Below, in pieces: positions 26,669 to 35,972 of a DNA stretch of 64,000 nucleotides. The notes beneath the pieces are model-generated. The model did no database searches and was not told where the DNA came from. It worked only from the letters and a program-made list of their open reading frames with translations. The DNA comes from Planotetraspora phitsanulokensis (GTDB lineage: Bacteria; Actinomycetota; Actinomycetes; Streptosporangiales; Streptosporangiaceae): NCBI RefSeq assembly GCF_016863295.1, contig NZ_BOOP01000031.1:62001-126000 (forward strand). Direction: 5' to 3'. Position 1 is the stretch's first letter. Every line of letters begins with the position of its first letter. The position numbers and the translations under genes are program-made.

Positions 26669-27388
26669 TCACCGATCGGTGACCAGCGTCACCTCCCCGT
26701 CCTCGTCGATCAGGCGCTGCAGGATCTCGTACGGCAGCCACACCAGCGGGTACGAGGTTCCCCAGGAGTTGACCAGCCGTACCGCCTGGCGGCTGTCCGA
26801 GGCCCGGTAGACGCAGATGGCGTGCCCGCCGCGGACGGCGCCGAGGTCGCCCTTCCCGATCCAGCCGCCGTCATCGGGACGATCGAAGTTCGAATACCAG
26901 TTGCAGCCCAGCACGACAGGCGTGCCGTACGCGATGCAGGTGCGGACCTCGTCGACCGTGGTCGCCCAGCGGTTGGCCGCGATGCCGTCCGTGAGCGAGA
27001 CCGCCTGGCGGCGGCCGCGGAAGAGCCGGCAGTGGCCCTCGTCGCGCAGGACGTCCATGGCGGCCCTGACCGAGGTGCCCTGGTCGTCACCGGGGTTGGT
27101 CGACGGCCATTCGTCGACTTCCTTGGCGCGGGACCACAACCAGCGCGCGTCGTACAGCGGCCGGTTGAGCACGGACATCATCCAGGACGAGGAGAAGCCG
27201 ACGCATGCTCCCTCCCGCTGCTGGTCGTAGAGGCGGCGGAAGGCCGGGAGCGGCAGGGCGCGCTCGACCACCGGCACGGTCTGCGGGGCGATGGCGGAGT
27301 AGGGGTAGCGCTCGACGTGCCGCCAGTCGGCGGGTGCGCGCCTGCCGAGTGGCGGGGCGCCGGTCGCGTCACCGTTCGTGATGCTCAT
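26669..27388 (-). CDS. Papain-like cysteine protease (C1 family)
   Basis: A 239-residue protein with all papain active-site elements: Gln57/Cys62 in DQQREGACVGFSSSW, His189 in RGGHAICVYRA and Asn207 in VNSWG. It has no signal peptide or propeptide and is about the size of the catalytic domain only. Last gene of the five-gene minus-strand operon; it overlaps the upstream multidomain gene by 20 nt. The C1 fold can act as a protease or, as in polymorphic-toxin and phage-like systems, as a peptidoglycan or processing peptidase. I infer a processing or effector role within the operon product. Confidence 0.88.
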   Translation of the reverse strand: MSITNGDATGAPPLGRRAPADWRHVERYPYSAIAPQTVPVVERALPLPAFRRLYDQQREGACVGFSSSWMMSVLNRPLYDARWLWSRAKEVDEWPSTNPGDDQGTSVRAAMDVLRDEGHCRLFRGRRQAVSLTDGIAANRWATTVDEVRTCIAYGTPVVLGCNWYSNFDRPDDGGWIGKGDLGAVRGGHAICVYRASDSRQAVRLVNSWGTSYPLVWLPYEILQRLIDEDGEVTLVTDR

Positions 27389-29504
27389 CGATGGTCTCTT
27401 CCGTGATCGAGGGGAGTGGGATGGCCAGCCCGTCGCGGACGAGGCGTGCCCAGGTGGTCACCGCGTCCACACCGATGTCCTGGCCGAGCCGGACGCTGAG
27501 TGCGGCGGCGAGCGCCGCCGGGTCCGGATGATCGGCGAAGGCGCGCGGGCTCGAGACGCCGAGCAGGATGAGGGCCTCCCTCACCGGTCTCGGCAGGACG
27601 GTCAGGGACAGCAGCGCCACCTTGTCGAGCAGCGCGGCGAGGTCGACTCCGAGGTTCAGGCCGGCGAGTGCCGCCGATCCCGCCGGGGCGGAGGCGAGCC
27701 GGGCGAGGTCCTCCACCGAGTAGACCCGAAGGGCGTTGAGCCGTGCGACGGCGTCCGCGCTCAGCTCGGTGAGCACGGACAACGGCTGGTCGAGCTGGTC
27801 CGCGTACGGCAGCCGCGCGCCGAGGACGGGCCGTACGCGCATCCGGATCTGCCCGAGCTGCTCGTCGACGGGCGCCCGGTCGACGACCTTCGCCCGCACC
27901 TGGCCGAGCCGGTCGAGCTGCACCGCGACCGGAACGCTGAGGTCGAGCTCGTCCACCACGTACGCGCCCACCGTGCTCGGATACCGGGCGAGCTCGCTCT
28001 GCATCCGGTTGACGGCGGTGGCGATGGTCTCGCCGAGCTCGTGCAGGACGACCTCTCCGTCGGGACGGGGAACGCCGGCGATCTCCAGGAGCACCGTGCC
28101 GGTGCCGGCGGCGTCCCAGCCGACCTCGTCGTCGAGGGTGGCCACGAGGGCGTCCGCCGCGTAGAGCCGGAAGAACAGGGCGGGAGGGACGTCGGCGGGC
28201 AGAGCCAGGTCGAAGGTGCCGTCCTGAGCGGTGTACGTGGCGGCGCCGAGCAGGCCGCCCGGTCTGGGGACCTTGTCCCACGCCTCGACGCGCAGCCCGG
28301 CCACCCCGGACCGGGTGACCTGGTCGACCAGCCGCCCGGCGACGCGGAAGACGGCCGGCGCAGCAGGGGGCAGGTCCACCTCGCAGAACACCGAGGCGGC
28401 GTCCGCGTGCCACGCCGCGGTGGTGACCCGCTGCTCGCCCACGCGGACACCGTCCCGATAGAGACGCAGCCCGAGATCCGGCCGGCCTCCGTCGGGGGAG
28501 GGCGGCACGCTCACGGAGAACCGCCCGTCGCCGTCGGTGGAGGTCTGCTTCAGCAGCACGTCGAAGCCGACGCCGTACACCTCGACCAGCAGACCTGGCA
28601 CGGGGGTGCGGGCGGCGCGGTCCAGGGCCTGGCCGCCGAGCCGGTAGGCGGGCGGCCGGTCAGGCGGCACGTCCAGCACCAGGCGGACGTCGCGCAGCCG
28701 GAGGTCCGCCCATGCGGCGGGCCAGTCGACGGTCGCGACCCGCTCGTCCCGCGACCAGACGGCGAAGGTCGGCACCGGCGGGGTGTCGAGCACCTGGGCG
28801 AAGCCGAGCGTGAAGTCGCCGGAATCGCCGGTCGTGGCGTCGCCGACCGGGTTGGCCCACTGGCCCGACCGGTCCAGCAACTCGACCCGCAGGCCGCCCA
28901 GTCCCGATCCGTCGGCCTTCCGCGCCACCTTCCCCGTGACCTCGAAGTTCCCGGGCGGGGAGAAGACGACGTCCGCTTCGGAGTCCTTCTCGGTGACGGA
29001 CCAGGAGCCGACGAGGGGCCGGTCGCCCTCCAAGGAGAGCCGCAGCTCGGTGGGGACGCCCGGGTCGGAGAGCCGCAGGGCGAACCATCCTCCCCGTCCG
29101 GTCGCGGCCTTCTGCCGTACGCCGGCGAGTGTGGACGCCGTGACGGTCAGACGCTCCGGGGCCGGGTCCTCGCCGATCAGGGCCCGCCCGAAGAGCGGCC
29201 GTGACCGGCCGTCCCGGTCGTCAAGCCAGATGACGGGCTGCCCGCCCCGCCTGTCCTCGACCGGGACCTGGACGACGGCGACGAGCGCCCTCGGGTCGAG
29301 GTCGGCTGCCCCCTTGCCGTGGTGCACCCGCAGCACGACGTCCCCGCGCGACGCGGGAACGTCGAGCGCGAACCGGCCGTCCGCGTCGGTCTGGGCGGCC
29401 GCCACCGGTAGGTGACGGCCCGGGCGGTCGCCGACCTCCCAGGCGCTCACCGTGGCGTCGGCGACCCCGGCCCGGTCGCCCCGGTTCAGCAACGTGCCCT
29501 TCAT
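27369..29504 (-). CDS. Multidomain beta-sandwich (carboxypeptidase-regulatory/Cna-B-like) protein with helical tail
   Basis: A 711-residue protein. Five or six consecutive ~90-residue modules share the pattern V-x-G-L-x-V-E-[VA]-[WY]-D ... D-G-x-F-x-[LV]-x-[VL]-P, for example GLRVELLDRSGQ...SGDFTLGF, GLLVEVYGVGFD...DGRFSVSVP and GLRVEAWDKVPR...DGTFDLALP. This is typical of Cna-B/CarboxypepD_reg beta-sandwich stalks. Residues ~540-711 are helical with HhH-like repeats (VYSVEDLARLAS, LGVSSPRAFADHPDPAALA). No signal peptide. ATG 29504 follows GGGAG and overlaps the preceding stop by ATGA. It probably is a structural or scaffold protein; an interaction stalk is inferred. Confidence 0.8.
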   Translation of the reverse strand: MKGTLLNRGDRAGVADATVSAWEVGDRPGRHLPVAAAQTDADGRFALDVPASRGDVVLRVHHGKGAADLDPRALVAVVQVPVEDRRGGQPVIWLDDRDGRSRPLFGRALIGEDPAPERLTVTASTLAGVRQKAATGRGGWFALRLSDPGVPTELRLSLEGDRPLVGSWSVTEKDSEADVVFSPPGNFEVTGKVARKADGSGLGGLRVELLDRSGQWANPVGDATTGDSGDFTLGFAQVLDTPPVPTFAVWSRDERVATVDWPAAWADLRLRDVRLVLDVPPDRPPAYRLGGQALDRAARTPVPGLLVEVYGVGFDVLLKQTSTDGDGRFSVSVPPSPDGGRPDLGLRLYRDGVRVGEQRVTTAAWHADAASVFCEVDLPPAAPAVFRVAGRLVDQVTRSGVAGLRVEAWDKVPRPGGLLGAATYTAQDGTFDLALPADVPPALFFRLYAADALVATLDDEVGWDAAGTGTVLLEIAGVPRPDGEVVLHELGETIATAVNRMQSELARYPSTVGAYVVDELDLSVPVAVQLDRLGQVRAKVVDRAPVDEQLGQIRMRVRPVLGARLPYADQLDQPLSVLTELSADAVARLNALRVYSVEDLARLASAPAGSAALAGLNLGVDLAALLDKVALLSLTVLPRPVREALILLGVSSPRAFADHPDPAALAAALSVRLGQDIGVDAVTTWARLVRDGLAIPLPSITEETIDEHHER

Positions 29505-29800
29505 CCGTCTCCCTCTCCCTGTTCGGCGGGCAGGTACCGCACGCCCACGATCAGGTGGCCGCCGGCGCCGGACGGCAGGCCGACCAGCGAGGCCGTGGCC
29601 TGACCCGGTTCGCGCTTCGGGAGCAGCCGCATCGCGACCGGGATCCTGAGACGGACGGCCGACCACGTCAGCACGGTGGGCGTGATCCCGGTCTCCCCGA
29701 AGGCGTCCAGGCTGTCCAGTCCGCGCTCGTCGAGCGCGAGTTGCGCGTCCACGAGCCCGTCGCCCGTGGCCGCGAGCAGATCGGTCAGCGCGACTTCCAT
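29501..29800 (-). CDS. 99-residue protein related to part of the 359-residue operon protein
   Basis: No named family. Short soluble protein: MEVALTDLLAATGDGLVDAQ, LDERGLDSLDAF, then ITPTVLTWSAVRLRIPVAM and a polar tail. The order A-Q-x-x-L-D ... P-T-x-x-x-W-x-x-V-R/x-L-x-x-x-V also occurs in the 359-residue protein at the head of this operon, suggesting that both share a small domain. Its stop overlaps the next start (ATGA) and its start lies 4 nt after the transglycosylase stop, so it is translationally coupled on both sides. Confidence 0.7.
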   Translation of the reverse strand: MEVALTDLLAATGDGLVDAQLALDERGLDSLDAFGETGITPTVLTWSAVRLRIPVAMRLLPKREPGQATASLVGLPSGAGGHLIVGVRYLPAEQGEGDG

Positions 29801-29804
29801 GCCG

Positions 29805-30971
29805 TCACCTCGGGACCGGGATCTCGAGGTGGTACGCGGGGTCGGTCGGAGGTTGCAGGAAGCGCCTGACCCGGCCCTCGGCTTTGACCGCGCGTTCGAA
29901 GGCGGCCTGGTCGCGCACCGAGCTGGGGGCGACGTCGATGACCGTGAGCACCCGCGGATCCGCCGTGTGCCGCGACACGTTCTGCGCCCCGATGGCGACG
30001 ATCTTGCCTTCCATGTCGGCCTTGATCGCGGCAGGATCCCGGCCGGCGGCCTTCGACGAGACGTACACGTCGATGACCTGGTCGCCGTACGAGCCGTAGA
30101 GCTTCTTCTGCGCCGCCGGGCCGTACCGCTCGCAGTTGTCGTACATCACCCGCGCCTGGTCCCGGGGTGAGCGCTGGGTGCTGGTGACCAGCGCGTCGGA
30201 CAGCCCGGCCGCGCGCAGCACGTCGGTCAGCACCCCGAGCGCGTAAGGCGGGACCGCCTCCCTGCTCGCGGACTCCGCCCAGCGGACGGTCGGCTGCGGG
30301 GCGGCGACCGCTCTCGGAGGCGGGGAGGGGGACGAGCCGCCGAGCAGCACGTCCAGGCCTACCGCCGGCTTGGTGGGATGCTCGCGGAGGACGGCGACCG
30401 CGTCGTTGAGGAAACGGACGAAGCGGTCGACGTGCGCCCCCGTGCCGATCGGGTACTGCCGCAGCTTCCATCGGTTGCCGGTGCCTCCCTGGTAGTGCAG
30501 CCGCCCCGCGTTGTAGGCGGCCGCCACCAGCGGCGGGTCGAGCGAGGTCTCGCGGGCCTGCTTCGCGATGTACGCCGTCCCCGCCGTGATCGAGTTGCCC
30601 GGCACGAGCAGCCACGCGCGGTCGAGGCTGAGCTGGAGCGTCTCGCGGGCGGTGGAGATGAGCGTCTGCGTGAGCCCGGCGCTGACCCGGTGCGGAGTGG
30701 CCTCGTCGGAGGTGTAGCCGGGCTCCTCCCTGACCGCGTCGGCGTTGCCGCCGGACTCGGTGCAGATGGTCGCGATGATCAGCTCGGCCGGGACCCGGTA
30801 CGTCCTGGCCGCGATGTTGATCTGCCGGGAGTACGCGTCCCAGACCCGGGTGACCGTGCGCGGGCTGCCCTGCGTCCGTTCGACGCCGGTGCCGCTGATC
30901 TCCACGCCGGCGGGGACCAGGCGCCAGGTGACGCTGTCCTGGTAACCGTGGAAGTCGGTGAGCCCGGCCAT
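29805..30971 (-). CDS. Lytic transglycosylase fused to an M15-like peptidase domain
   Basis: A 388-residue protein. Residues ~45-200 form a lysozyme-like SLT domain: catalytic Glu72 in ICTESGG, VSAGLTQTLIS and AAYNAGRL (the AYNAG hallmark), so it should cleave glycan strands of peptidoglycan. A Pro-rich linker (~212-225) leads to a second domain with STQRSPRDQARVMYDN and candidate zinc ligands His335 (SRHTADP), Asp346 (VIDVAP) and His381 (AYHLEIP), the order seen in M15 D-Ala-D-Ala peptidases. No signal peptide is visible, so export by a dedicated device would be needed. It is 10 nt behind the 359-residue gene and 4 nt before the 99-residue gene. Confidence 0.82.
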   Translation of the reverse strand: MAGLTDFHGYQDSVTWRLVPAGVEISGTGVERTQGSPRTVTRVWDAYSRQINIAARTYRVPAELIIATICTESGGNADAVREEPGYTSDEATPHRVSAGLTQTLISTARETLQLSLDRAWLLVPGNSITAGTAYIAKQARETSLDPPLVAAAYNAGRLHYQGGTGNRWKLRQYPIGTGAHVDRFVRFLNDAVAVLREHPTKPAVGLDVLLGGSSPSPPPRAVAAPQPTVRWAESASREAVPPYALGVLTDVLRAAGLSDALVTSTQRSPRDQARVMYDNCERYGPAAQKKLYGSYGDQVIDVYVSSKAAGRDPAAIKADMEGKIVAIGAQNVSRHTADPRVLTVIDVAPSSVRDQAAFERAVKAEGRVRRFLQPPTDPAYHLEIPVPR

Positions 30972-30981
30972 CCCCGTCCCC

Positions 30982-32061
30982 TCAGACCGAGATGGCCGCG
31001 GACTGGCTGACCAGGCCGAAGCTGACCCTGACCAGGGCCTGTACCGGCTGGTCCTGGTCGGGCGCCGCCACCTTCCTGCTGATGTCGATCGACATCTCAC
31101 CCTGGGCGTTCGTCTTGCCCGGGCTGGTGAAGTTGAGCGTGGGCTCGCTGATGGTGATCGACAGGTTCTTGTCGTCGTTCGGGCTGCCGTCGGTCTTCTT
31201 GAGCACGGCGGTGATCGCGACCTTGTGGGCGGTCACCGGCTTGGTCTCGTCGTTGTCCTGGTGGACGTCGGTCCGCGCGCCGACCTGGAGTTCGAGCCTG
31301 GGCCCCTTCTGCAGCACGAACGGCTGGGGGAGTTGCACGTCGGAGCGGGGCTCGAGGGTCGCCTCCATGTGCAGCTTGCCCGCGGCGAGGTCCTGGCTGA
31401 GGGACGCGTCGACACCGGTGGCGGTGTTGCTGTAGGAGGTGCTCGCGGACGCGCTCATTCCGCCGCCGAAGATTCCGAATCCGCCTCTGACGCTCGCGCC
31501 CGCGGAGAACGCGCGCTGCTGGACGTTGAAGCCGCTGCGGGAGTTGAACTCCTGCACGTTGGCGTCGGCCTCGAGGTAGACCCGCCTCCACTGGTAGGCG
31601 GTCGGCATCAGGTAGTTGATCAAGGGCAGTTTCTGCATGTGGACCTCGCCCTTGTCCATCGTGCCGTCGTCGTCCTTGATCTGCTGCTCGAAGACCGCGA
31701 TGACGTCGATCTGCGTCTCGGAGAGCGCCTTCGCCGTCTCCCTGAGGTTCTTGTCCAGCTCCGACTGCGCGGCGGCCACGGCCAGCCCGACGCTCTTCAC
31801 GAGCTCGCCGAACGCGACGCCGTTCCCGGTCATCTCGTCGGCCACGTTCGAGTCCGCCGCCGTCTCGCCGACGGTGAGCGGTTCCGCCCTGGCCGTCGCC
31901 ACGCCCATCTCGCGGATGGCCTCCATGGTCGCGGAGACGTCGCCGGGAACGGCTTCCGCGCCGGGTACGGCCAGGGCCGCTTCCGCGGCTTCGGCGCCCG
32001 TGGGCTCGGCCTGCTTGCCGGCTGCCGTCCTGGCGGGGCGGGGCGTTGGCTTGTCGGTCAT
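30982..32061 (-). CDS. 359-residue protein of unknown family, first gene of the operon
   Basis: I do not recognise the family. The first ~35 residues are Pro/Ala/Thr-rich. Residues ~75-180 are helical with FGELVKSVGLAVAAAQSELD and LPLINYLMPTAYQWRRVYLE. Then comes a Gly/Ser-rich flexible loop, SVRGGFGIFGGGMSASASTS, at about 199-218, which is like membrane-inserting or hairpin segments of some secreted proteins. The C-terminal third is a beta-sandwich (LSITISEPTLNFTSPGKTNA, PVQALVRVSFGLVSQSAAIS). ATG 32061 follows GGAGG at 7 nt. The two-block promoter element lies 31 nt upstream. It is probably the main structural or carrier protein of the operon; that is inference from position only. Confidence 0.75.
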   Translation of the reverse strand: MTDKPTPRPARTAAGKQAEPTGAEAAEAALAVPGAEAVPGDVSATMEAIREMGVATARAEPLTVGETAADSNVADEMTGNGVAFGELVKSVGLAVAAAQSELDKNLRETAKALSETQIDVIAVFEQQIKDDDGTMDKGEVHMQKLPLINYLMPTAYQWRRVYLEADANVQEFNSRSGFNVQQRAFSAGASVRGGFGIFGGGMSASASTSYSNTATGVDASLSQDLAAGKLHMEATLEPRSDVQLPQPFVLQKGPRLELQVGARTDVHQDNDETKPVTAHKVAITAVLKKTDGSPNDDKNLSITISEPTLNFTSPGKTNAQGEMSIDISRKVAAPDQDQPVQALVRVSFGLVSQSAAISV

Positions 32062-32092
32062 GATCCAGCCTCCATCTGCTGAGTTCCTCTGA

Positions 32093-32129
32093 CCTATCCA
32101 GAGGGGGCGGGAAGACCGGCTGATACATC
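32093..32129 (-). promoter_or_regulatory. Two-block promoter element, copy 2 (five-gene operon)
   Basis: On the minus strand: GATGTATCA (32129-32121), 17 nt, CTCTGGATAGG (32103-32093). Identical first block, identical spacer and 8 of 11 identical positions in the second block compared with 24128-24164. The spacers themselves are dissimilar, so the match is not general homology. Confidence 0.6.
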
Positions 32130-32178
32130 GAATCGAGGAAAAGTCGCCATTCGGGCCGCATCCGCGCACACGGGCGCC

Positions 32179-32234
32179 CGGTCCGCCGTCAGCGGACCGT
32201 GCGGCACGTCACGCGCTGCGCAGTGACGTGCCGC
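32179..32234 (-). terminator. Two hairpins at the end of the ABC transporter gene
   Basis: GCGGCACGTCAC/GTGACGTGCCGC (32201-32212 and 32223-32234, 12 bp perfect) spans the stop codon. It is followed by CGGTCCGC/GCGGACCG (32179-32186 and 32192-32199) downstream. They insulate the exporter from the five-gene operon promoter. Confidence 0.65.
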
Positions 32235-34035
32235 GCGACCGGGACAGCCGGAGCCGGATCCGCCCGGAGTCCCGGACGGCTTCGAGCACCACCTTCTCGG
32301 CCGCCTCCGGCACGAGGCGCAGGTCATGGGTGATGAGGATGGTGGTGCGCCCGGACATCAGCCTGCGGAGCGGTTCCATGATCCGCGCCGCCGTGGGCTC
32401 GTCGAGTCCGGTCATCGGCTCGTCCAGGACCAGCACCGGTGTGTCCCGCAGGATCGCCCGGGCGATGGCGATCCGCTGCCGCTGGCCGCCGGACAGCAGA
32501 CGTCCCCGCTGGCCGATGGGCGTGTTGTAGCCCTGGGGGAGCCCGCGGATGAAGTCGTGCGCGCCGGCCGTGACCGCGGCCTCCACGATCTCGGCCTGGG
32601 TCGAATCCGGGCGGCCGTAGGCGATGTTGTCGCGCACCGTCCCGGAGAAGACGAGGTTCTCCTGCTGGAGGAGGGTGACGCGGTCGCGCAGGACGTCGCG
32701 CGGCAGGTCACGCAGGTCCGTCCCGTCGAGCAGGATCCGTCCCCTGGTGGGGTCGTAGAACCGCAGGAGCAGCTTGGCCACGGTCGACTTGCCCGCGCCG
32801 CTCGGCCCCGTGCACACGACGAGCTCCCCGGGCAGCGCGCTGAACGACAGGCCGCTCAGCGTCGGCCGGGACCGGCGGGGATAGGTGAAGCCGACGTCGA
32901 GGAACTCGATGTGGCCGAGGCTCGAAGAGCTCGGGGCGAGGGCGGCGGGCCGGTCGGTGACGGCGGGGCGGGCGCGAAGCACCTCCATGATGCGGTCCGA
33001 GCCCGCGCCGGCCTCCGAGACGGTGAGCGCGATCTCCCCGAGCCCCTGGACCGCCGGATACAGATAGGCCAGATAGGCGGCGAACGCCAGCAGCCCGCCG
33101 AGGGTGAGCCGGCCCGCCGCGATCTCCCACGCCCCGAACCCGATGATCACGAGCAGGCAGACGGTCTCGATGACCTGTACGGCGGGGCCGTACAGGGCGG
33201 ACAGCCGGGCCTGCGAGATGTTGGCGGCCATCCAGCCGCGGCCCGCCTCGTGCAGCCGCCCCGACTCGGCGGCCTGGCGGTTGTAGGCCTGGACGACCGG
33301 CTGGTTCGACAGGGCCTCCTCGATGGCGCTGTTCATGACCCCGTTGCTGAAGCGCTCACGCGCCGCCGCCCGCCTGAAGCGCGATGCGAAGGCCTTGGAC
33401 ACCAGGAGGAACGCCGGGACCATCGTGAAGGTCACCAGGGCGAGGTCCCATCTGATGAAGAAGGCGGCCGTGGCGAACAGGACCGCGCTGATCACCGCGG
33501 TGATCAGCCGGATCAGTCCGGAGCCCACGAGTTCCTCGATGGCCTCGATGTCGTCGGTCAGCCGGGCCATCAGATCGCCCAGCCTGCGGTTCTCGAAGAA
33601 GTCGGGGGTCAGCGTCTGGAGATGGTCGAACACGTTGTCGCGCAGGCGCAGCAGGAAGCGCTCCCCGCCCACGGCCGCGCTGAACGCGCTGACGAAGGAG
33701 GCCACGGCCGCGACCGCGGCAAGACCGATCCAGGCGAACGCGGGTGCCCAGAAGGCGGTCAGGTCCTGGGTGCTGAGGACCTCGTCCGTGATGAGCCCGA
33801 ACAGCCGGATCGCGATGATCTCGCAGACGGTGGCCAGGATCGCCATGAGGACACCTACGACGAGCAGCCAGCGCAGCCCCCGGGTGTAGGGCCAGAACCG
33901 CCGGAAGCTCTTCCGGATGGAGACGATGGGCGCCACCGAGGGGGCGTCCTGCGCCGCGCCCGTCGCGAAGCCCATGAAGGAGGGGAGCCGACGGGTGACC
34001 CGCCGGCTCCGCTCTGGTCCTCCAGATGTGGTCAC
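32209..34035 (-). CDS. ABC exporter (fused membrane and ATPase domains)
   Basis: A 608-residue half-transporter of the type IV (MsbA/LmrA) exporter class. Six membrane helices occupy residues ~45-330 (LLVVGVLMAILATVCEIIAI, FAWIGLAAVAAVASFVSAF and others). The ATPase has Walker A GPSGAGKST, the Q-loop LLQQENLVFSGTVRDNIAYG, the signature LSGGQRQRIAIARAI and Walker B VLVLDEP. No C39 leader-peptidase domain is present. GTG 34035 overlaps the stop of the upstream 41-codon peptide gene in a GTGA, so translation is coupled. An ATG at 33975 is a less likely start. Export of that peptide is the simplest reading; self-resistance to it is an alternative. Confidence 0.88.
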   Translation of the reverse strand: MTTSGGPERSRRVTRRLPSFMGFATGAAQDAPSVAPIVSIRKSFRRFWPYTRGLRWLLVVGVLMAILATVCEIIAIRLFGLITDEVLSTQDLTAFWAPAFAWIGLAAVAAVASFVSAFSAAVGGERFLLRLRDNVFDHLQTLTPDFFENRRLGDLMARLTDDIEAIEELVGSGLIRLITAVISAVLFATAAFFIRWDLALVTFTMVPAFLLVSKAFASRFRRAAARERFSNGVMNSAIEEALSNQPVVQAYNRQAAESGRLHEAGRGWMAANISQARLSALYGPAVQVIETVCLLVIIGFGAWEIAAGRLTLGGLLAFAAYLAYLYPAVQGLGEIALTVSEAGAGSDRIMEVLRARPAVTDRPAALAPSSSSLGHIEFLDVGFTYPRRSRPTLSGLSFSALPGELVVCTGPSGAGKSTVAKLLLRFYDPTRGRILLDGTDLRDLPRDVLRDRVTLLQQENLVFSGTVRDNIAYGRPDSTQAEIVEAAVTAGAHDFIRGLPQGYNTPIGQRGRLLSGGQRQRIAIARAILRDTPVLVLDEPMTGLDEPTAARIMEPLRRLMSGRTTILITHDLRLVPEAAEKVVLEAVRDSGRIRLRLSRSRGTSLRSA

Positions 34036-34157
34036 CACCACCAGCGCCTACGCCAGCGGCGCCAGCGACGGAAGCGCCTGCGCCTGCGTCGCCTGCAACA
34101 GCCCCAGCTGTCCTCGGACATGCTGAGGTTCGTCGGGAAGATCTTGTTCAAACTCAT
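34032..34157 (-). CDS. 41-residue Arg/Trp-rich peptide, candidate exported cationic peptide
   Basis: A tiny gene missed by length filters. It starts at ATG 34157 behind the strong ribosome site AGGGAGGG (about 5 nt spacing). The first 18 residues are ordinary (MSLNKIFPTNLSMSEDSW); then Gly-Cys-Cys; then a 20-residue tail of 14 Arg, 5 Trp and 1 Phe: seven Arg, Phe, Arg-Arg-Trp twice, three Arg, three Trp. Arg is written with AGG, CGA, CGC and CGT codons, so the run is not a simple DNA repeat and looks selected for the amino acid. The stop overlaps the ABC exporter start (GTGA). It resembles Arg/Trp antimicrobial peptides or an unmodified/RiPP precursor. A translation-attenuating leader peptide is the main alternative. 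Confidence 0.65.
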   Translation of the reverse strand: MSLNKIFPTNLSMSEDSWGCCRRRRRRRFRRWRRWRRRWWW

Positions 34158-34188
34158 CGATCCCTCCCTTTGCTCGATTCCCCCGGGT

Positions 34189-34207
34189 ATGTCTAATTCC
34201 GACATTA
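34189..34207. promoter_or_regulatory. Interleaved inverted repeats upstream of the Arg/Trp peptide gene
   Basis: ATGTC...GACAT (34189-34193, 34201-34205) interlocks with TAAT...ATTA (34194-34197, 34204-34207), 32 nt upstream of the peptide start. It lies in the 318-bp divergent gap to the M1 peptidase gene, which otherwise contains no gene that I can support. An operator for the peptide/exporter pair is inferred. Confidence 0.35.
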
Positions 34208-34475: not shown

Positions 34476-35972
34476 GTGAATCGCCCCATCCTTTACGTCG
34501 CGCTCGTGCCGGCATTACTGATAACCGGCTGCACGGCGGAGCCCTCTCGAGTCCCTCAATCCGCCGCCACCGTGCCCGCGACAGGACCCGCCGCCGCGTC
34601 GCCGACCCCGGCCGAGGACGCGTACGCGGCCTGGCAGGCCGGGCGCTCGACGCCCGTCGCCGACCCGATCTACCCGAAGCGGGGGACCGACGCCCTCGAC
34701 GTGCTCCACTACGACCTGGCGCTCGACTGGTCGCCGTCCAAGCGCGTGTTGACCGGCACGGCGACCCTGCAGGTCCGGCCGACGAAGGACGCCGAGTCGT
34801 TCAGCCTCGACTTCGAGCCCTACGACATCGACTCGCTGACGGTCGACGGCGCCTCCGCGACCGGCGAGGTGACCAAGGAGAAGCTCACCGTCGCCACCCC
34901 CGTCACCGCGGACAAGCCGTTCACTCTCGTCGTGGCCTATCACGGCAAGCCGAAGACCGTCCCGATGCCGTCGAAGCGCGGTGACACCCATCCGCTCGGG
35001 CTCACCGTCGACAAGGACGGCGGCCTGTGGACGATGCAGGAGCCGTACGGGGCTCTCACCTGGTATCCGGCGAACGACCAGCCGTCGGACGAGGCGCTCT
35101 ACGACATCGCCGTGACGGTGCCGAAGGGCTGGTCCGGCATCGCGAGCGGCACCCCCAAGGGGCAGGACGGAAACACCTTCCGCTACCAGAGCACCGACCC
35201 CGTGGCGTCCTACCTGACGACGCTCGCCGTCGGGAAGTACAAGAAGGTCACCGCGAAGGGCCCGCACGGGCTGCCGCTGACCTACTGGTACCGGCCGACC
35301 GACAAGCGTGCCCTCCCCGTCTTGAAGAAGTCCCCGAAGTACCTGACCTGGCTGGAGAAGAAGTTCGGCCCCTATCCCTTCCCCAGCGGCGGCGTCGTCA
35401 TGGTGGACTCCGACTCGGGGATGGAGACCCAGCAGATGGTCACCCTGGGGTCCGCCGTGTTCTCTTTCGGCGCGGACCAGTTCGAGCTGGACGTCGTGCA
35501 CGAGTACGCCCACCAGTGGTTCGGCGACGCCGTCACACCGACCAATTGGCAGGACCTGTGGCTCAACGAGGGCTGGGCACAGTACGCCCAGTTGGTCTAC
35601 GAGAAGGAAACGGCCCACCTGACGAACGCCGACTTCGACGCCTGGTTCCGGCAGGCCGACGCGGCCCTGCGCAAGAAGTACGGCCCGCCCGGTCACCCCA
35701 GGCCGTCGGAGTTCGCCATGAGCAACGTCTACATCTGCGGGGCGGCGATGCTCCGCCAGCTGCAGAGCACGATCGGCGACAAGAAGTTCTTCGCGCTCGC
35801 CCACGCCTGGGCGCAGGACCACCGGAACACCCAGCAGACCCGGAAGTCCTTCACCGCCTTCGTCAACGAGCAGACCGGCAAGGACTTCACCGCGTTCATC
35901 GACGCCTGGCTGGACTCGCGGACCACCCCGCCGAAGTCGCTGAAAGACCGCAAGGGAACGAATCAAACCTGA
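34476..35972 (+). CDS. M1-family zinc metallopeptidase, lipoprotein
   Basis: A 498-residue surface-anchored aminopeptidase-like enzyme. Residues 1-19 are a lipoprotein signal with lipobox I-T-G-Cys19. The M1 domain has the zinc motif HEYAH (His342, Glu343, His346), third ligand Glu365 in LNEGWAQY, and an exopeptidase-type motif GxMEN replaced by DSGMETQQM, so substrate end-recognition may be unusual. GTG 34476 has no Shine-Dalgarno; TATAGT and TATACG hexamers lie 10-25 nt upstream, suggesting a leaderless mRNA. It is divergent from the Arg/Trp peptide/ABC operon and could process or degrade that peptide outside the cell. Confidence 0.9.
   Translation: MNRPILYVALVPALLITGCTAEPSRVPQSAATVPATGPAAASPTPAEDAYAAWQAGRSTPVADPIYPKRGTDALDVLHYDLALDWSPSKRVLTGTATLQVRPTKDAESFSLDFEPYDIDSLTVDGASATGEVTKEKLTVATPVTADKPFTLVVAYHGKPKTVPMPSKRGDTHPLGLTVDKDGGLWTMQEPYGALTWYPANDQPSDEALYDIAVTVPKGWSGIASGTPKGQDGNTFRYQSTDPVASYLTTLAVGKYKKVTAKGPHGLPLTYWYRPTDKRALPVLKKSPKYLTWLEKKFGPYPFPSGGVVMVDSDSGMETQQMVTLGSAVFSFGADQFELDVVHEYAHQWFGDAVTPTNWQDLWLNEGWAQYAQLVYEKETAHLTNADFDAWFRQADAALRKKYGPPGHPRPSEFAMSNVYICGAAMLRQLQSTIGDKKFFALAHAWAQDHRNTQQTRKSFTAFVNEQTGKDFTAFIDAWLDSRTTPPKSLKDRKGTNQT

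Follow-up and report, generated by a model that had tools for sequence, protein, structure and literature searches.

Our analysis confirmed that the 41-residue open reading frame (ORF) next to an ABC exporter gene in the window, by which we mean the whole 64-kb stretch of DNA analysed, is a real and conserved gene. A peptide ORF of this kind accompanies every close homologue of the exporter that was found in the family Streptosporangiaceae, and its frame is under selection at the protein level. The peptide of the window is probably secreted, without modification, as the substrate of the adjoining ABC exporter, and its N-terminus would act as an address segment.

The peptide gene and the exporter in the window

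Direct reading of the minus-strand ORF gave the product MSLNKIFPTNLSMSEDSWGCCRRRRRRRFRRWRRWRRRWWW (Table 1). The peptide begins with MSLNKIFPT and continues through Gly-Cys-Cys to an Arg/Trp tail with a WWW end; the last 20 residues, preceded by the Gly-Cys-Cys, comprise 14 Arg and 5 Trp. These counts and the coordinates of the gene agreed with the first-pass annotation, as did its statement that Arg is encoded by four different codons, which in the tail are AGG (4), CGA (1), CGC (7), and CGT (2). The net charge of the peptide is +13, and it possesses neither a long hydrophobic segment nor a GG motif. The nearest named relatives of the locus belong to four Planotetraspora species, and the Shine-Dalgarno (SD) sequence is retained in four congeneric orthologues (L045–L048). 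A second copy of the peptide and exporter pair, with MSISNVFPTGARTPSSWGSWGGGWRRCGCRRRWRCRRRRCWW, is present in the same genome on contig C1.

Table 1. Positions of the peptide gene, the exporter gene, and the associated elements in the 64-kb window.
Feature	Position	Strand	Remark
-10-like hexamer TAATGT	34202..34207	-	Upstream of the peptide gene
Shine-Dalgarno AGGGAGGG	34162..34169	-	4 nt ahead of the peptide ATG
Peptide gene, 41 aa	34032..34157	-	126 nt; read directly; selection test in frame
GC-rich hairpin GGAGCCGGCGGGTCACCCGTCGGCTCC	33984..34010	-	Just 3′ of the peptide stop; terminator- or stabiliser-like
ABC exporter half-transporter, TMD + NBD, ABCB/MsbA type	32209..34041	-	Called from the GTG overlapping the peptide stop

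The exporter consists of one TMD and one NBD and is similar in sequence to MsbA, Sav1866, and P-gp. In Pfam, ABC_membrane and ABC_tran were its significant matches and a C39 peptidase domain was absent, as had been noted before; none of the 25 NCBIfam models listed for it attained its cut-off. An overlap of the two genes at GTGA had also been described. The GTG at the peptide stop is indeed in frame with the exporter ORF and is a candidate start of it. The conserved core of the exporter spans 33933 to 32212, and the stretch between the peptide stop and this core carries no coding signature in the spacing class to which the window belongs (8 loci), which leaves the true start in this class unsure. 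In the 26 Nonomuraea-type loci, the coding signature before the core is limited to the last 24 nt. Several K/P-type loci (L152–L154) have an exporter with its own SD and start, located behind a terminator with a T run. The TMD charge, taken by a crude count as a sign of a possible acidic substrate cavity, differs little from that of control exporters (+0.89 versus +2.05 per 100 aa; 16 controls), a point against the peptide being the substrate.

Conservation of the pair within Streptosporangiaceae

Search of 341 Streptosporangiaceae genomes with a 325-residue membrane-domain query (E ≤ 1e-45) revealed close exporter homologues at 105 places, distributed over 100 genomes and 17 of the 68 genera; these places correspond to 106 entries, since L044 and L066 denote one locus. 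Peptide genes were sought within 1 kb upstream of each exporter and on the same strand, as ORFs of 30–59 residues with an SD and an ATG, in which basic and W/Y/F/G/C/P residues together made up a large fraction. A peptide ORF rich in R/W/G/C or in K/P/H was found upstream of all 105 exporters, which bears out the consistent pairing of peptide and exporter. The first composition rule gave no candidate in 12 of the 106 entries and was widened after these regions had been read; their peptides, as read, are K/P/H-rich, R-rich, or G/F/H-rich, and the control figures that follow rest on the widened rule.

With a score of at least 0.5, a peptide was obtained in 105 of the 106 entries; among the controls, this score was attained in about 1% of the Markov-shuffled upstream regions (n = 530), 2% of the antisense stretches (n = 106), and none of 79 downstream stretches or 19 other exporters. 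When the cut was relaxed to the 0.38 with which ORFs had been picked, the corresponding values were 23% of the shuffles, 4% of the antisense stretches, 8% of the downstream stretches, and 0/19 for the other exporters. Neither loss of the frame, nor random composition, nor frame-disrupting indels, the outcomes that the first-pass annotation had set as reasons to abandon the gene, were seen in the homologous loci.

The family was found to be far wider than the first-pass annotation saw, with tail chemistry that varies between exporter groups. Nonomuraea, Streptosporangium, Microtetraspora, Sinosporangium, Thermocatellispora, Thermoactinospora, Actinoallomurus, and Actinomadura are among the named genera represented in the best 80 of 132 related loci, as are Actinoplanes and Paractinoplanes, which are outside the family Streptosporangiaceae. 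A peptide HMM was too weak a probe, with matches in 13 of the 341 genomes; its match in L165 was judged spurious on reading.

Selection on the peptide, its N-terminal pattern, and its tail classes

Selection at the protein level, proposed earlier for the window peptide, was supported by pN/pS values of 0.41 in the called frame versus 0.96 and 1.64 in the other two (381 pairs, exporter identity ≥ 85%). The 381 pairs share ancestry, so only a set of 38 disjoint pairs is near independent, and it gave a pN/pS of 0.33. A dN/dS of 0.19 over 109 pairs picked by peptide identity is biased and was set aside in favour of the pairs chosen by exporter identity. Between the window peptide and that of the nearest congener there are seven synonymous and two non-synonymous changes and an in-frame length change of two residues.

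The N-terminal pattern M-x-h-x-x-h-x(0-2)-P is present in 47 of the 105 family peptides (0.27 expected from shuffled residues) and in 42 of 67 peptides outside the family (0.5 expected). It is missing in 58 of the family peptides, notably those of the Nonomuraea MANTQL type.

Classification of the tails by composition at 175 loci gave 95 RWGC, 50 KPH, 13 R, 12 HGD, two other, and three with none; the classes are coarse, with L255 and L295 placed in RWGC and L144 in HGD despite the RWGC class of its sister L052. When mapped on a FastTree tree of the exporters, tail class required 16 changes, against at least 60 in 200 shuffles (172 rows), and outside the family 11, against at least 21 (67 rows). 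Relatedness alone can yield such clustering, and the tree, which has no other ABC exporters as rows, does not show that these exporters form a clade. In genomes with several paralogous exporters, each is flanked by the peptide type of its own exporter group, for example in G762 (L280, L307, and L309) and G778 (L288, L308, L312, and L313). A net positive charge was found in 161 of the 171 peptides counted. The 12 loci of the H/G/D class have a median net charge of −1, and therefore cationic membrane activity cannot hold as a general rule across the family; by its charge, this class would fit metal binding better than antimicrobial action.

Relatives beyond the family

A nine-row exporter profile (E ≤ 1e-60) matched in 26 of 394 genomes of the class, three of them Streptosporangiaceae, in 30 of 121 genomes of genus g52, and in seven of 35 genomes of another family, the last being the same seven loci as in the class search. 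Genus g52 is probably Streptomyces, to judge from a named relative on the Streptomyces nigrescens plasmid SNP1, where the upstream ORF is of the same kind. Two named Actinoplanes/Paractinoplanes loci included and duplicates (L244 and L318–L320) dropped, there were 70 distinct distant loci. By reading, which gives a generous count, a small K/P-, H/G/D-, or R-rich ORF lies upstream of 67 of the 70 exporters; no such ORF was found upstream of the other three (L256, L265, and L269). Eight of the loci were fixed by hand: L243, L245, L257, and L266 as listed by the script, and L285, L303, L310, and L311 once they had been read. Of the 70 loci, 55 passed a fixed rule (SD, ATG, 25–80 residues, score ≥ 0.45), versus 11 of 350 shuffles and five of 70 antisense stretches, and an ORF with the N-terminal pattern was present at 42 of the 70 versus five of 350 shuffles and one of 70 antisense stretches. 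Examples of distant tails are KPAPAPKKPAPKKPAPKRP (L307), PPPPKPKRPRRPHPRP (L258), HGHGHG runs (L300), and an RGG/Tyr tail (L255).

Hairpin and promoter-like elements

The hairpin of the window would fall inside the exporter ORF if the overlapping GTG were the start. A stem score of at least 27 was found after the peptide stop in 102 of the 105 family loci (the exceptions being L052, L099, and L144), compared with 24 of 423 control windows taken from within exporters; the mean best local energies were −37.8 and −24.9 kcal/mol, respectively. The hairpin core, GAGCCGGCGG(N3-8)CCGNCGGCTC, occurs at two sites in the 9.17 Mb genome, both of which are peptide loci, and the backwards control pattern has one match. 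Compensatory changes in the arms were seen by eye. Search against Rfam gave no credible match, the single weak one having an E value of 0.84 and 17.3 bits against a gathering score of 42.5.

The -10-like pattern TAN[TCG]GT, which was picked after the sequences had been viewed, lies within 130 nt upstream at 96 of the 105 loci, with 22.7 expected from shuffles. L281, L285, L289, and L307 have in common a stretch like GTAATGTTTTCCATGTCGAAAGCGAACG upstream of the first peptide gene, which is likely a promoter and 5′ leader.

Tandem copies and copies apart from a full exporter

Tandem peptide genes precede a single exporter at seven loci: five genes at L307, three at L289, and two each at L160, L249, L281, L283, and L308. 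Second ORFs at L291 and L296 look unrelated and were left out of this count. By eye, the hairpin follows the last tandem copy alone at L307, L289, and L281, and an upstream peptide copy also has a hairpin at L160 and L052.

At L164, an extra peptide copy (2545-2664; MTFTKLFPTNHDWGWGGGCGWRRRWGGCGGGCGWRRRWWW) with a hairpin is followed by just a short exporter-like start, and no full exporter was found in the 5.5-kb stretch covered. At L163, the exporter runs from 4001 and its similarity ends after about 183 residues, with the upstream K/P/H peptide intact; the truncation could be either a deletion or an assembly fault. The intact peptide beside the truncated exporter indicates that the pair can come apart. 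The Sinosporangium-type loci L052 and L144 have a second small peptide of the Lys/Tyr/Cys or Lys/His type (KPKKKKKKCKKYCCKY; KKKKGKKHYKKHYKKRCH), located upstream of the WDDDDW..CGCHRRRHH peptide and about 0.7–1.25 kb before the exporter core; that of L052 has the same kind of hairpin 3′ of it.

Proposed function and alternatives

For transport, N-terminal recognition, transcript ratio, and activity, we infer the following. MSLNKIFPT would be the address segment of the window peptide, and a low-complexity cationic-aromatic tail follows it. A promoter ahead of the peptide gene and the hairpin 3′ of the peptide stop would together make the peptide abundant and keep the exporter, expressed by read-through, scarce. 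Recognition by the exporter would rest on the N-terminal segment, and the intact peptide would be pumped out of the cell, which would protect the producer too. Outside the cell, the Arg/Trp/Cys tail would most likely bind anionic envelopes. An antimicrobial, bacteriocin-like role is our tentative first choice for the activity, and by their make-up the R/W and K/P classes would fit it.

A structural or surface-binding role is our second choice and seems unlikely. The peptides would then be low-complexity polymers of the spore, hypha, or matrix, or binders of metal or phosphate, exported by the ABC protein and not used as weapons. Their low complexity, the in-frame length change between close relatives, and the presence of H/G/D-rich, RGG/Y-rich, and K/P-rich relatives beside related exporters are consistent with such polymers, and the tandem copies suggest a need for dose. 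However, the make-up of the Arg/Trp class resembles that of known membrane-active peptides, and the patchy presence of the system (100/341 family genomes and 30/121 in g52) is unlike that of a core envelope part.

The first-pass annotation had also offered a leader peptide that tunes exporter translation, which our results disfavoured and which we consider improbable. Pausing on Arg/Trp (or Lys/Pro) codons would switch the hairpin and so control transcription or translation of the exporter, while the peptide itself would be useless. Arg-, Pro-, and Trp-rich stretches are difficult to translate, and the hairpin 3′ of the stop in 102/105 family loci, together with the overlap of the peptide stop and the candidate exporter start in the window, is what such a leader would have. 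At 12 loci the exporter core lies 156–613 nt off; the exporter frame there often continues open in the direction of the hairpin, and the geometry of peptide, hairpin, and start may be kept at many of them. We had argued that the hairpin remains beside the peptide even where the exporter is distant, but dropped this point, since the long distance is measured to the conserved core and the open exporter frame often extends to within about 25 nt behind the hairpin. The hairpin is close to the peptide stop and the exporter starts are uncertain, so that the leader geometry may be kept at many loci, though not at L051, L052, and L144, and does not decide between the two readings; at L051, an exporter start is impossible before +116, which counts against a leader. 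So do the presence of up to five peptide genes for one exporter, the retention of peptide and hairpin at L164, and the recurrence of the N-terminal residues together with tails whose chemistry shifts between exporter groups. The tandem genes, L164, L163, and the recurrent N-terminus point to a product rather than to an attenuator leader.

That the peptide is a small regulatory subunit, retained in the cell and bound to the exporter, is very improbable: the tail class does pair with the exporter group, but the window peptide has no long hydrophobic segment, up to five copies are found per exporter, and the groups are far apart in tail chemistry. The reading of the ORF as chance or mistranslated DNA of low complexity and high GC content deserves hardly any credence, for although CGN-rich triplet runs can yield Arg runs in such DNA and 23% of the shuffles pass the loosest cut, the stricter cut and its controls, the frame-specific selection, and the retained SD, promoter-like, and hairpin elements speak against it.

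Comparison with known systems

No Pfam or NCBIfam family was found for the window peptide and 10 relatives; the L156 peptide has one weak Pfam match below the cut-off (LCE, E 0.089). Among the open-licence PMC papers covered by our search terms, no description of this peptide family was found. Pairs of a peptide and an ABC exporter are of a known kind, and the family itself is apparently undescribed. The present pair differs in that its low-complexity tails vary with the exporter group, the N-terminal segment recurs, a hairpin directly follows the peptide, and a modification enzyme is not evident.

Leaderless bacteriocins of the aureocin A53 and lacticin Q type have an ABC exporter. As likened by description, they share with the present system small cationic Trp peptides, an exporter without C39, the lack of a GG leader (as in the window peptide), and no evident modification enzyme; the pairing at 105/105 loci marks the exporter here as a dedicated one. 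The present peptides differ in their recurrent N-terminal segment, their extreme low complexity, the Cys in many tails, the dependence of tail chemistry on exporter group, and the hairpin directly 3′ of the peptide. The exporter has the domain order and sequence of the ABCB/MsbA/Sav1866 exporters and differs from these in having a peptide gene as its partner. Leader peptides of the attenuator or drug-sensing kind, such as trpL and ermCL, likewise are short ORFs of unusual codons followed by a hairpin, as is found here before a transporter gene. A leader of that type is a single ORF tied to the gene it regulates, whereas here there are tandem copies at seven loci, one copy kept without a full exporter, and a recurrent N-terminus.

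Antimicrobial peptides of animals include the Trp/Arg-rich indolicidin and tritrpticin, the Pro/Arg-rich Bac7 and drosocin, and the His-rich histatin. The R/W, K/P, and some H-rich tails are like them in residue make-up only; those peptides come from animal genes and are secreted by a signal peptide, whereas several of the peptides here carry Asp or Gly/Cys repeats. It is possible, though we hold it as doubtful, that related actinobacterial ABC exporters deliver composition-coded peptides with a shared N-terminal address and lineage-swapped tails (Arg/Trp/Cys, Lys/Pro, His/Gly/Asp, and RGG/Tyr), an unmodified bacterial counterpart of innate antimicrobial peptides. The tails would then match the residue classes of the animal peptides without homology, and the family may have been missed because ORFs of this sort are easily passed over by gene finders.

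Should the peptides be secreted, a gene-encoded, enzyme-free peptide class would be present in many antibiotic-producing actinobacteria and would escape RiPP mining that relies on modification enzymes; each peptide can be directly synthesised and tested. The family is also a system for asking how one exporter type takes a recurrent N-terminus with freely changing tails, and a case for how low-complexity tails evolve under frame-specific selection.

Neighbouring genes

Sixteen neighbourhoods of 10–16 kb from one family were examined by comparing the neighbours with each other, and five genes of the window were annotated individually by Pfam. In the 16 neighbourhoods, the exporter and a doubtful cluster made up of three low-quality ORFs were all that was common across genera, and no shared gene that could be a modification enzyme was found among them, in line with the earlier remark that no such enzyme is adjacent. 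RiPP precursors and C39/GG-leader bacteriocins also have a short precursor beside an ABC exporter; the present system differs from them in the absence of a cross-genus neighbour save the doubtful one, of a C39 domain on the exporter, and of GG in the window peptide.

A divergent M1 peptidase with a lipoprotein-like start (34476-35972) had been suggested to act on the peptide. It was rejected as a partner, being present in four of the 16 neighbourhoods, all of Planotetraspora, and on either side of the exporter. Downstream of the exporter, the minus-strand region 27369-32169 encodes a 395-aa protein without a Pfam match, one with an SLT domain, and one with carboxypeptidase-regulatory-like domains. 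Among the neighbourhoods compared, the first and the last of these three have counterparts at the corresponding position in one congener (L046).
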